A stretch of 41,742 nt of DNA from Nitrospira sp. (GTDB lineage Bacteria > Nitrospirota > Thermodesulfovibrionia > Thermodesulfovibrionales > SM23-35), in assembly GCA_016873615.1 (NCBI GenBank), contig VGWX01000013.1, positions 1 through 41,742 of the forward strand. Direction: 5' to 3'. Below the pieces are notes generated by a model. That model had not been told where the DNA came from and did no database searches. It saw only the letters and a program-made list of their open reading frames with translations. Of the stretch, positions 31,545 through 37,383 are shown piece by piece. The position numbers were made by a program, and so were the translations under genes. Each line of letters starts with the position of its first letter. Position 1 is the stretch's first letter.

Positions 31545-31613
31545 GACGATATGTTTGACAATCAAAAGAATGTTCTTGATAATACAGCAGAAACCATGAA
31601 AATAGGAGGAACA

Positions 31614-33605
31614 ATGACTGTTATATGGGCAAATGATAAAATCAGCAAGACAGAAATTCAGACCATCCAAATCAATCTTGGGAACAAGTGCAATCAGAGC
31701 TGTTGCCATTGCCATATAGTCGCTTCACCAAATGGTAAAAAGAATATGGAAGAATCTGTAGCACGAAAAATTCTCTCAAAGCTCTTGGATATCAATACCG
31801 GGGTTATAGAGTTTACAGGAGGAGCGCCGGAACTTAACCCGAATCTTGAGCTGTTTCTCTCCGAACTTGGAAGGCACGGCAGGCAAACAATGGTGAGAAC
31901 GAATCTGACTGTACTTGATATTCCTGAATATTCTTTTTACATTGATTTATACAGGCGTTACAATGTGAAGATCATAGCTTCCCTTCCAAGCTGCTTTCAA
32001 GATATCACGGACCAACAGAGAGGCAAAGGGGTTTTCAATAAAAGTACAAAGGTCCTTCAGACACTGACCTCGATCGGATATGGATCCGGCGATTTGAGCA
32101 TAGACCTCGTCTACAATCCCGACGGAATGTATCTGCCCCCTTCCGAGAAGGAATTAGAAAGGGATTACAGAAAGCTCCTGAAGGAGATGTACGGTATTAC
32201 CTTCAACAGGCTCGTAACCATTACAAATACCCCTATAGGCGGTTTCAGGAGATACCTCCTGACCCAGAACAAATACGATGATTATATGAAAATGCTCGTG
32301 AATAATTTCAATCCCGAGACTTTGAATAGCATCATGTGCAGACGACTGCTCTCCATAGATTATAAGGGTTATGTATATGACTGCGACTTTAACCTTGCCC
32401 TCGGAATAAGGGTTAAGGGCTATGAAAACAAAAGATTTTGGGAGATAGACTTTGATAAATTCAATCCCGAGATAACCTGCGGCGAGCACTGCTATGCCTG
32501 TACCGTGAACCAGGGAAGCAGTTGCCACGGGGCATTGATAAAAGAGGATATGGAATTTGACGTGAAAGGGACAGTGAAGCACTATTATGGTTCCGAGTTA
32601 AAAAGCACATCGGATCTGAAGACTAACGCATGCTGCACGCCGGATTCACTTCCCTCTCATATCAAAGAAGTAATGCCATATATAGCTGAAGAAATCAAAC
32701 AGCGATACTATGGCTGCGGTTCTCCTGTCCCGCTCGTACTCAGTGGTCTGAAGGTACTTGATATAGGATGCGGAACCGGAAGGGACTGCTATATTTTTTC
32801 AAAGATGGTGAGAGAAGAAGGTTTTGTCTCTGGGATTGATATGACCGAGAACCAGATTGAAGTTGCCAAGAAGTATCAGAATGAACAGGCTGCGAGATTT
32901 GGTTACACAAAGCCGAACACGGAGTTCATTCATGACTATATCGAAAACCTTGAAAAGCATTTTCCTGTGAACTCCCTTGACCTGATCGTATCAAATTGTG
33001 TAGTAAACCTCATTGAGAACAAAGACAACCTCATGCATCAGGTTTTCAGGATTCTGAAAGACGGTGGAGAGTTCTATTTTTCGGATATCTATGCCGACAG
33101 GAGAGCGCCGGATCATATCAGAAAGAACCCTGTTCTCTACGGTGAATGTCTGGGAGGGGCTCTTTACTGGAAGGATTTCGAGAGGATCGCGAGGAGGGCA
33201 GGGTTTACCGATCCACGGGTAGTCTCAAAAAGAGTCGTCGATATATCGAATGAAGAGATAATAAAACTTATAGGGAATATCTCTTTCTATTCCATAACCT
33301 ACAGGCTATGGAAAATCGAGGGGCTTGAAGATGCCTGTGAAGATTACGGTCATGTCGCTATATACAGAGGAGGGATTCCGGAATCACCCTTTAAGTTGCC
33401 CCTCGACGGTGACCACGTCTTTGAAAAAGATAAGCCGGAAAGAGTCTGCGGCAATACAGCGCTCATGCTTTCTGAGACCAGGTTTTCTTCTTACACCGAG
33501 GTTATCGGAAGCTTCACACAGCACTTCGGGCTGTTCGGGAGTTGTGGTACACCAAAAAGTCAGGAGCAAAGTCAGGAGAATCAGGGAGGTTGCTCGTGTC
33601 GCTAA
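31614..33605 (+). CDS. arsS: ArsS-ArsM fusion: radical SAM plus arsenite methyltransferase
   Basis: A 663-residue bifunctional protein. The ATG at 31614 has AGGAGG five bases upstream and is preferred over an in-frame ATG at 31551 with no ribosome site. Residues 1-330 are the ArsS radical SAM enzyme: CNQSCCHC (CX3CX2C, 26-33), EFTGGAPELNP, RRLLSIDYKGYVYDCDFN and a Cys-rich CGEHCYACTVNQGSSC. Residues about 335-663 are ArsM: NACCTPDS, YYGCGSP, the SAM site VLDIGCGTGRDCY (about 379), SNCVVNL, YGECLGGALYW and a CysCys-type tail. Conserved ArsM cysteines are present. ArsM methylates As(III) and ArsS adds the 5'-deoxyadenosyl group in arsenosugar synthesis. Confidence 0.93.
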   Translation: MTVIWANDKISKTEIQTIQINLGNKCNQSCCHCHIVASPNGKKNMEESVARKILSKLLDINTGVIEFTGGAPELNPNLELFLSELGRHGRQTMVRTNLTVLDIPEYSFYIDLYRRYNVKIIASLPSCFQDITDQQRGKGVFNKSTKVLQTLTSIGYGSGDLSIDLVYNPDGMYLPPSEKELERDYRKLLKEMYGITFNRLVTITNTPIGGFRRYLLTQNKYDDYMKMLVNNFNPETLNSIMCRRLLSIDYKGYVYDCDFNLALGIRVKGYENKRFWEIDFDKFNPEITCGEHCYACTVNQGSSCHGALIKEDMEFDVKGTVKHYYGSELKSTSDLKTNACCTPDSLPSHIKEVMPYIAEEIKQRYYGCGSPVPLVLSGLKVLDIGCGTGRDCYIFSKMVREEGFVSGIDMTENQIEVAKKYQNEQAARFGYTKPNTEFIHDYIENLEKHFPVNSLDLIVSNCVVNLIENKDNLMHQVFRILKDGGEFYFSDIYADRRAPDHIRKNPVLYGECLGGALYWKDFERIARRAGFTDPRVVSKRVVDISNEEIIKLIGNISFYSITYRLWKIEGLEDACEDYGHVAIYRGGIPESPFKLPLDGDHVFEKDKPERVCGNTALMLSETRFSSYTEVIGSFTQHFGLFGSCGTPKSQEQSQENQGGCSCR

Positions 33606-34481: not shown

Positions 34482-36374
34482 TTAAATATTGCATATAATT
34501 CTTGATGATAAAAATCGTTTTTCATCGGTTCGCCTGGTGATTTTATTTGAATCAAGGTATTCGAGAAAAGGAAGAGCATATTTTCTTGAAGTTCCGAGTA
34601 TCTCCCTGAATTCTGATACAAGCATTTCGGTTTTTCTGCTGGAAAAGTCTTTCAAAAGTTCAATCATCCTTTTATAAACAGAAGATGTTATATAAAATGA
34701 ATCGTTTATCCTCATAAGGCTGCCTTCTTTGACCATGAGCTTCAATATTTCAGAGAGGTATTTTTGATCTGCTCGCAGGGATTGAGATAATTCTTCTACT
34801 GTTAAAGGCTGAAATCCGGCATTTCCGAGAATTTCAAACATAGTTGCTCTGAGAGTTTCGTCTTCTTTTGACAATGTGATATTAAAAGTAAGGAGTCTTA
34901 CAATGTCTCTGTCAACAATTACGCCTTCATGTGCACTAATCATCTGGTCAAAAAGTTTCGGTTTAAGGTGACTGTGACTTCTGAGTTCTTCTTTCTGAAT
35001 TCCAGGCTTCAAAGGATTTCTTTCGTGAAAATCCTGTAATAATTTTTTTACAATTTCTCGAAAAGAATCAAAAGTAGTTTTATGAATCAAGATGCTCTCA
35101 AACTGCTTAACAGTTCCTTCTTTTTTTAAAGATTCTATAGCTTCCTTTATAGATTCAAAATCTGCACTAACCCATCCCGCTATCAAAGATGCATTAATAC
35201 CTTGTATCCCGGACCGTTTAACCTTCACTGATATTTTTTCAGTGAGTATCCCTGTTTCGAATATCTTCAGGTCTTCTATGCTTTTTTTATGACTCATTTT
35301 ATGTGAAGAAGGATCGCAGACTTCACCCCCTCCAATTGTTTCTACAGGAGAGAACCTCCTGATAATATACCTGTCTCCAGACATGGCTATAATATGCTCC
35401 TGAAGCCTGAACTGGCAGTAGCAATTTTCACCTGCCTTGATCTCATTTCTGCCATAAAGCACCACTCTCGCCATAACCTCCGATGTGCCTACGTGGAGAT
35501 GGATAAGGTCTCTGCTTTTCAATGGCGGCACATTTAAGAGTAATTCCAATTTTGCATCGATCATCTTAGTCGGGCTAAATCTTTCAGGCATTACAACACA
35601 ATCGCCCCTCTTTAATTCATCTTTATCAACTCCCTGAAGATTCATCGCAACTCTCTGGCCTGCATACGCTGTCTTTATAGATTTGCCATGGCTGTGAAGC
35701 CCCCTGACTTTACTCTTGATGCCACTCGGCAGTATCTCCACAACATCTCCAACCGATATGCTTCCTGAGAAAGCCGTTCCTGTAATAATTGTTCCGAATC
35801 CCTTCAGTGTAAAAACCCTGTCAATTGGAAGTCTATACAGACCTTTTGCTGATTTCGGCTCCACTTTCAGCGCCGTTTCCCTGATCTTTTCCTTCAACAG
35901 GTCAATCTTAAAGAGTGTTTTTGATGAAACAGGCACGATTGCTGCTTTTTCAAGAAAAGTTCCTTTTACAAACAGTCGTATATCATCTTCAACAAGATCA
36001 AGCCAGTCTTTCTCAACAAGGTCGACCTTTGTAAGAGCAATAAGCCCTGATTTAATCTTGAGAAGGTTGCAGATATGAAGGTGTTCACGACTTTGAGGCA
36101 TAATCGATTCATCTGCAGCAATAACAAAGAGAACAATATCTATTCCACCTGCGCCGGCGAGCATATTTCTGATGAGCCTCTCATGTCCGGGCACATCAAC
36201 AATCCCGACAGTGAGTCCGTTGGGATATAGAAGGTCTGCAAAGCCGAGATCAATAGTCATACCACGATCTTTTTCTTCCTTAAGCCTGTCAGGATCGATA
36301 CCTGTCAAAGCCTTTACAAGAGCGCTCTTCCCGTGGTCGATATGTCCTGCTGTACCAAGAATTACATATTGCAT
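34482..36374 (-). CDS. selB: selenocysteine-specific elongation factor SelB
   Basis: A 630-residue translation GTPase that delivers Sec-tRNA to UGA codons marked by a SECIS. N-terminal EF-Tu-like motifs are [16 protein letters not shown] (about 10-25), the switch [17 protein letters not shown] and TKVDL. Middle domains include [19 protein letters not shown]. From about residue 370 to the end lie the winged-helix domains that read the SECIS hairpin (for example [42 protein letters not shown]). It starts 27 nt downstream of an unusual Sec-like tRNA. selA and selD are not in the window. Confidence 0.96.
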
Positions 36375-36401: not shown

Positions 36402-36495
36402 TGGAGAGGGGTAGTGGGAGTTGAACCCACCTTAATCCTGTACGGATAATTCACTGGTTTTGCAGACCAGGCGGGGCCCCGCCCCGTTACCCCTC
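36402..36495 (-). tRNA. tRNA(Sec)-shaped tRNA with Cys anticodon GCA
   Basis: The 94-nt minus-strand RNA folds with an 8-bp acceptor stem (GAGGGGTA/TACCCCTC), a long GC-rich D stem (CGGGGC/GCCCCG with a tiny loop), the anticodon arm CTGGT-CTGCAAA-ACCAG, a long variable arm of about 23 nt (TTATCC...GGATTAA), a 5-bp T stem (GTGGG/CCCAC with TTCAACT) and an encoded TCCA end. The 8/5 branch and long variable arm are the hallmarks of bacterial tRNA(Sec). The anticodon is GCA instead of TCA and the discriminator is U73 instead of G73, both being cysteine identity elements. It sits directly upstream of selB, where selC is expected. Confidence 0.88.
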
Positions 36496-36515
36496 AAATA
36501 TAATTATATATTGAT

Positions 36516-36545
36516 ATTATGAATATATCTAATTGATATTGTCTA
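36516..36545 (-). promoter_or_regulatory. probable promoter of the tRNA-selB unit
   Basis: On the minus strand a -35-like TAGACA (36545-36540) and a -10-like CATAAT (36521-36516) are separated by 18 bases. Each matches the sigma-70 consensus at five of six positions. The predicted start falls about 12 nt before the tRNA 5' end (36495). AT richness makes chance matches likely. Confidence 0.4.
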
Positions 36546-36594: not shown

Positions 36595-37383
36595 TTAGTT
36601 AGAAAGATGTTTTTTTATTAATTTTTCAGCTTTTTCCAGAGCAATTTCTTTAAAAAATCTTTTTATAGCTTTTTCGTTCAAGATCACACTGCCGTTGAAT
36701 TCCTGATAATTTTTACTGAGAACACATTCAAGCTGTTGATCGCCTTCGTCCCATTGTTGGCCTACGATTGACTCTACCTCTTTTCCTGACTCTATATTTC
36801 TTATCGGAAGAAAGAGTTCTATATCGAATCTCTTCAGGAGATTTATGTAGGCATCTAATGAAATCCCTATTTGATTAATTTTGATCTTGCCGTCATGAGA
36901 TTCTCTTTCTCCCCCTATTATCAGCTTACAATGCAACTTCCTTGCAATGGGAATCCGTATTGCATGAAAGTAGAGGTGGCAACCTAAACAGGGAGAATAA
37001 AATTCAAGTATTTTGAAAAGATGGGATATATATCTTCCGCACAATGTCCACCAGAGCTTTGGAGAACCTAAGATAACCGGTGCATATACTTTTATATTCT
37101 TTTTTTGTAATCTATCTTTCAATTCCTTTATCTTTTCAAAAGGTATATCCCAGTTGCCATATTCTGTTCCGGTATATGCTATTGTAGGCATGATTGCTTG
37201 AATATGTCGTAATTCACACGCCTGAATAACAGCAGCAATACTGTCCCTTCCGGCTATTTCAGCTATAGCTAAATCCGCAATTTCTCTGATTTCATTAACT
37301 CTTGATTCCGGGAGCATCCATTCAGGGAAATCTGACATTAGCTCCGGTTTATTGCTTAAAATCTCAAGATATCTTTTTTCCAT
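36595..37383 (-). CDS. PP-loop-like ATP-pyrophosphatase family protein
   Basis: A 262-residue protein that I recognise only at superfamily level. An early IAGRDSIAAVIQA (about 43-55) resembles the PP-loop (SGGxDS) of N-type ATP pyrophosphatases, with R in place of the second G. A later PCLGCHLYFHAIRIPIARKL (about 130-149) places a CxxC near the expected second half, as in tRNA-thiolation or queuosine-type enzymes. RxxK-type basic residues near the C-terminus could bind RNA. It sits 5 nt after apgM and upstream of the Sec-like tRNA and selB. A nucleotide- or tRNA-modifying role is a guess. Confidence 0.55.
   Translation of the reverse strand: MEKRYLEILSNKPELMSDFPEWMLPESRVNEIREIADLAIAEIAGRDSIAAVIQACELRHIQAIMPTIAYTGTEYGNWDIPFEKIKELKDRLQKKNIKVYAPVILGSPKLWWTLCGRYISHLFKILEFYSPCLGCHLYFHAIRIPIARKLHCKLIIGGERESHDGKIKINQIGISLDAYINLLKRFDIELFLPIRNIESGKEVESIVGQQWDEGDQQLECVLSKNYQEFNGSVILNEKAIKRFFKEIALEKAEKLIKKHLSN

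Follow-up and report, generated by a model that had tools for sequence, protein, structure and literature searches.

The selC* tRNA(Cys), which carries U73 and mostly a GCA anticodon, is known from Firmicutes, Thermodesulfobacteria, Nitrospirae and Proteobacteria, and in two delta-proteobacterial orders a second selB lies downstream of it (PMC7609411). A bulged A51a in the T stem, resulting in an 8/4 structure, is stated for these tRNAs and is dispensable for charging, while a cysS* without the anticodon-binding domain is a feature of the Desulfobacterales (PMC7609411). In Desulfotomaculum nigrificans, a tRNA(Sec)-like tRNA(Cys) with a GCA anticodon decodes selenocysteine (Sec) UGA codons with cysteine, and is delivered by SelB and not by EF-Tu (Vargas-Rodriguez et al. 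2018, via PMC11415595).

The locus described here was found in a stretch of 41,742 nucleotides, analysed at its full length and referred to as the window. Its tRNA is of this known but little-studied kind, selC* tRNA(Cys)/tRNA-ReC, and the latter name, which we take to be that of the tRNA(Sec)-like tRNA(Cys) of D. nigrificans, is used in what follows. The link to the Mukai/Soll work, drawn in the original prediction for this DNA by way of Mukai and co-workers, was right. On the other hand, two features were not found described before, i.e., a family-specific duplication of SelB (SelB*) with changes concentrated in the SECIS-binding domain, and a linkage between the tRNA and selenium genes that extends over the order.

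Anatomy of the tRNA gene

The same 94 nt of the window (Table 1) are identified as tRNA-Cys(gca) by ARAGORN and as tRNA-Sec by Rfam (RF01852, 54.1 bits, gathering score 47). In the stem reading, the acceptor stem GAGGGGTA/TACCCCTC is paired at 8/8 positions and the T stem GTGGG/CCCAC at 5/5, which makes an 8/5 branch, while the D stem CGGGGC/GCCCCG has 6 bp, as in tRNA(Sec), and closes a D loop of just 3 nt (GGG), TGGT being found in most relatives. The anticodon stem has the usual 5 bp, with the loop CTGCAAA. These results agree with the tRNA(Sec) body claimed beforehand (8-bp acceptor, 5-bp T stem, extended D stem, and long variable arm), and the cysteine anticodon and U73 that had been read on it were seen again by ARAGORN and in the stems. 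The UCA anticodon and G73 of the canonical tRNA(Sec) are absent from this tRNA, which has GCA and U73 instead, though its body passes the RF01852 threshold. A tRNA(Sec) body with cysteine identity elements is confirmed, and the tRNA is probably charged with cysteine.

The bulged A51a of the 8/4 structure is not present, as the T stem is fully paired (5/5) in the window tRNA and in nearly all of its orthologues. Forms of the 8/5 type are reportedly mentioned in the abstract of Mukai 2017 and, since charging does not require the bulge, its presence is treated here as the mark of a subtype.

Table 1. Position of the tRNA-ReC type gene, its parts and the adjoining selB* in the window
Feature	Position	Strand	Basis
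tRNA-ReC type gene, tRNA(Sec)-like tRNA(Cys), 94 nt	36402–36495	−	ARAGORN, Rfam RF01852, stem analysis
Acceptor stem, 5' strand GAGGGGTA	36488–36495	−	Partner of TACCCCTC, 8-bp stem
Anticodon GCA	36461–36463	−	ARAGORN, stem analysis
Long variable arm, 23 nt, weak 4-bp helix	36431–36453	−	Stem analysis
T arm GTGGG-TTCAACT-CCCAC, 5 bp, without bulged A51a	36414–36430	−	Stem analysis
Acceptor stem, 3' strand TACCCCTC	36406–36413	−	8/8 pairs with the 5' strand
U73	36405	−	Stem analysis
Encoded CCA	36402–36404	−	Stem analysis
Promoter-like site TAGATA-17-TATAAT, just 5' of the tRNA	36503–36531	−	Consensus scan only, weak
SelB*, 630 aa: GTPase, D2, D3 and winged-helix domains	34482–36374	−	TIGR00475, 368 bits; Pfam SelB-wing_2, wing_3

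Selenium and cysteine machinery of the host genome

The window belongs to a 2.9-Mb draft genome of 216 contigs, 99.98% complete. Elsewhere in this genome there is a canonical tRNA(Sec) (C84:978-1071, 71 bits; UCA, G73), which answers a question that the original prediction had raised, and a separate ordinary tRNA(Cys) is also present. The genome encodes SelA and a second SelB (G000:C135:2373-4238) with 69% identity to that of the window, together with a short piece of SelB at the edge of a contig, which looks like strain variation. The truncated cysS*, without the anticodon-binding domain, is absent from this genome, as the sole CysRS above the cut-off is full length. Two formate dehydrogenase (FdhA) genes have an in-frame UGA as their Sec codon at the expected site (ARYUHSASLAGL and ARIUHSATVAAL).

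This inventory bears on the reading of the tRNA as a sense-codon tRNA(Sec), serylated, converted by SelA and inserting Sec at UGC/UGU codons, as in Aeromonas salmonicida. The precedent (PMC11415595), the presence of SelA and the tRNA(Sec)-like D arm would suit such a function, but it is very improbable given that the tRNA(Sec) and tRNA(Ser) genes observed here have G73 and not U73, that a normal tRNA(Sec) with UCA is available, and that the Sec codons of FdhA are UGA.

Conservation and distribution of the tRNA

The pattern of a GCA anticodon and a long variable arm, which occurs once in the window and in 0/100 shuffles, was searched for in 396 genomes of the phylum and matched in 66 of them. 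The stems led to the acceptance of 51 loci, including that of the window, in 49 genomes and 13 families; given the single occurrence in the window and the 50 further hybrid loci, the pattern is not due to chance. This count of loci is a lower bound, because the pattern overlooks very long variable arms, and three further members of the tRNA-ReC class (L196, L197 and L224) lie outside it. Two of these, L224 (genome G036) and L197 (G127), both at around position 1500, have very long variable arms, with RF01852 spans of 123 and 128 nt, respectively, and are missed by ARAGORN. Their genomes appeared to have tRNA-ReC only, as no tRNA(Sec) was found in either, but this was rejected because SelA is present in both, and their tRNA(Sec) is treated as missed or unassembled. 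The third, L196, is present in G188, an incomplete assembly (81% complete) that yielded no SelA, SelB or tRNA(Sec). Most of the weak RF01852 matches in 24 genomes were the tRNAs for Ser, Leu or Trp.

U73 is found in all the accepted loci (L154, which has a 6-nt T loop, was judged by eye), and the encoded CCA in all except one decayed copy, L140. The 8-bp acceptor is kept in the orthologues, with double-sided changes at several pairs, such as TA/CG at pair 7 and AT/GC at pair 8, and the pairing of the anticodon stem is also retained through two-sided changes. The opal form, i.e., UCA with U73, was found in 0/230 genomes of the class. A sequencing or assembly error in an ordinary selC, the outcome that the original prediction had named as its refutation, might be suspected in a draft of so many contigs, but the separate canonical tRNA(Sec) and the same hybrid at 50 other loci contradict it; as the anticodon is GCA and never UCA, with a constant U73, the relatives refute it, and its probability is next to nil.

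Two near-identical tRNA-ReC genes with similar neighbours (L158 in G155 and L168 in G021) were found in genomes from different families of the class, which reflects either horizontal transfer or contamination. In a search for phage carriage of the tRNA, no exact match was found in IMG/VR.

Genomic neighbourhood

A selenium gene lies within 6 kb of the tRNA at 29/51 loci, being yedF (TIGR03527) at 19 of the 51, the LysR_Sec_metab regulator (NF040786) at 15, and selB at six. At several loci, yedF directly follows the tRNA on the same strand, while selB is nearby at the window locus, and yedF is not. A neighbourhood of 12 kb covers about half a percent of a genome of this size, so the linkage is far above what would be expected by chance, although the related genomes are not independent. 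Given the selenium-gene linkage and the ordinary tRNA(Cys) already in the genome, it is extremely unlikely that tRNA-ReC, despite its GCA anticodon and its ARAGORN label of tRNA-Cys, is a spare cysteine isoacceptor served by EF-Tu, all the more so because an 8-bp acceptor weakens the binding of EF-Tu and marks tRNA(Sec) for SelB (PMC7609411).

At the window locus, the tRNA is placed directly upstream of selB, as first reported: the start of SelB, at 36374, is on the same strand and follows the tRNA by 27 nt. A consensus scan, which is weak evidence, found no terminator-like site between the two genes. This arrangement, with the tRNA in the selB* leader, would be compatible with a decoy or regulator, in which a cysteinylated or uncharged tRNA titrates SelB, or a leader tRNA controls the expression of selB*. 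Such a role is nevertheless quite improbable, as most of the orthologues do not adjoin selB, and nearly all of them have the complete and constrained anticodon stem, GCA, U73 and the encoded CCA.

Other neighbours were also recorded. A double-cubane-cluster reductase (NF040772) and its activase lie beside tRNA-ReC at seven loci (e.g., L138, L144, L148 and L165). Near the window locus, an ArsS radical SAM protein (TIGR04167) is fused to an ArsM-like methyltransferase (31551-33605, forward strand); the ArsS family has selenoprotein members, and the window copy is open, without an in-frame TGA. Directly upstream of the tRNA, on the same strand, there is an open reading frame of 262 aa (36595-37383, reverse strand), for which no relative was found in Pfam, NCBIfam or the PDB. 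Its motifs GRDSIAA and CLGCH weakly suggest an enzyme of the PP-loop type, and its AlphaFold model, made with no relatives as input, was uninformative (pLDDT 36).

The duplicated elongation factor

Six SelB genes adjoin tRNA-ReC (one each in G000, G102, G106 and G148, and two in G149) and, in a tree without the delta-proteobacterial selB*, they group as a single clade (100/98), nested among the SelB sequences of their own family (100/99 and 96/88). This nesting indicates a duplication inside the family, and the sequences point to the origin of SelB* within this family of Nitrospirota. The original prediction had made a comparison with delta-proteobacteria; the relatives here are Nitrospirota, and the SelB copy came, as far as the tree shows, from within their family. 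One of the copies, at locus L148 of G149, encodes a truncated SelB* and adjoins a tRNA with a damaged T stem, which together indicate that it is decaying.

An altered Sec pocket, the site described in PMC5059743, was considered for SelB* and ruled out, as residues D180, R181 and R236 (E. coli numbering) are identical, and Y42 is F in all. The divergence of SelB* was then assessed at the columns conserved in 48 canonical SelB, a change being counted if it was present in at least two SelB*. The columns changed number 14/35 in winged helices 3-4 versus 13/189 elsewhere (Fisher, 2e-6), and 0/35 winged-helix 3-4 columns are changed in the canonical SelB of the family members. The winged helices of SelB (domain IV) bind the SECIS (PMC8124441), and these changes could reflect either a re-tuned specificity for the hairpin or simply a relaxed constraint.

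This pattern, and the single clade derived from a duplication within the family, are what would be expected of a private, orthogonal channel, in which a SelB* with an altered or re-tuned SECIS-binding domain would insert cysteine at its own hairpin-marked codons (UGA or UGC/UGU), ignored by the normal SelB. However, the relaxed constraint would yield the same pattern, the tRNA occurs without SelB* in most relatives, and both the target genes and the altered hairpin are hypothetical, which leaves such a channel as a rather doubtful proposal. If it were true, hairpin-directed decoding in the cell would be done by two systems, with Sec served by one and cysteine by the other, and SelB* with its changed SECIS-binding domain poses a testable question, namely whether cysteine has its own hairpin-directed elongation factor.

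Probable insertion of cysteine at selenocysteine sites

The function that we consider fairly probable for tRNA-ReC, a selC*-type tRNA(Cys), is the insertion of cysteine at selenocysteine sites as a back-up, by way of SelB or SelB*. The support obtained directly from this set of genomes is the anatomy of the tRNA, its conservation, its co-occurrence with the Sec machinery, the selenium-gene linkage and the SelB duplication. In such a back-up, the housekeeping CysRS would charge the tRNA through U73 and GCA, and the 8-bp acceptor and the tRNA(Sec)-like body would keep it off EF-Tu and hand it to SelB or SelB*. SelB* would then deliver the Cys-tRNA at codons marked by a SECIS, for the most part the UGA of selenoproteins (the two formate dehydrogenases among them), and a cysteine variant of the selenoproteins would be made as a safeguard when Sec-tRNA is short. 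Most relatives with tRNA-ReC have a single SelB, which both tRNAs would have to share together with its SECIS elements, so that the same SECIS would be the natural target.

The G34-A3 mismatch may be tolerated because the SECIS anchors SelB, and non-cognate decoding driven by SelB and the SECIS is known in E. coli (PMC3834832). The original prediction had regarded G34 as a poor reader of opal codons, a view that does not hold, given that the tRNA-ReC of Desulfotomaculum, with GCA, reads Sec-UGA as cysteine (PMC11415595). On the other hand, a GCA anticodon is a perfect match for UGC/UGU, so the target may be a codon other than UGA, and the divergence of the winged helices, which speaks against a back-up at UGA, hints that SelB* may read other hairpins.

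If this use of cysteine at Sec codons is by design, a single gene would provide a Sec or a cysteine enzyme according to the selenium supply, which would be a programmed ambiguity of the code. The order-wide conservation and the selenium-gene linkage provide an evolutionary argument for its use in nature, beyond reporters in E. coli.

Comparison with known systems

Like the tRNA-ReC of D. nigrificans, the window tRNA has a GCA anticodon and a tRNA(Sec)-like structure, and it coexists with a canonical tRNA(Sec), with charging by cysteine expected. It differs in coming from another phylum and in being linked to yedF and LysR_Sec and, within a single family, also to a duplicate of SelB. A second selB immediately preceded by a tRNA(Sec)-like tRNA(Cys) with U73 is an arrangement shared with the selC*/selB* of the Syntrophobacterales and Desulfobacterales (Mukai et al. 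2017, via PMC7609411). Unlike the delta-proteobacterial selC*, however, the window tRNA is fully paired as 8/5 without the bulged A51a, has GCA and not UCA, and is not accompanied by a truncated cysS*, while SelB* appears to have arisen in this family of Nitrospirota, according to a tree without the delta-proteobacterial selB*.

The tRNA(Sec) with a cysteine anticodon of A. salmonicida (Mukai et al. 2016, via PMC11415595) also combines a tRNA(Sec) body with GCA, but it inserts Sec at UGC, whereas the window tRNA has U73 and occurs alongside a tRNA(Sec) with UCA. Neither is the window tRNA an allo-tRNA, a type with a 12-bp acceptor branch (8/4 or 9/3) and serine identity, as it is 8/5 with U73. 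Finally, MM1309 of the archaeon Methanosarcina mazei, a SelB-like protein, binds Cys-tRNA(Cys) (PMC4329189), and SelB* would be another SelB paralogue linked with Cys-tRNA. However, it was the ordinary tRNA(Cys) that was used in the tests of MM1309, and SelB*, unlike this archaeal protein, is a complete SelB of the bacterial type that has winged helices.
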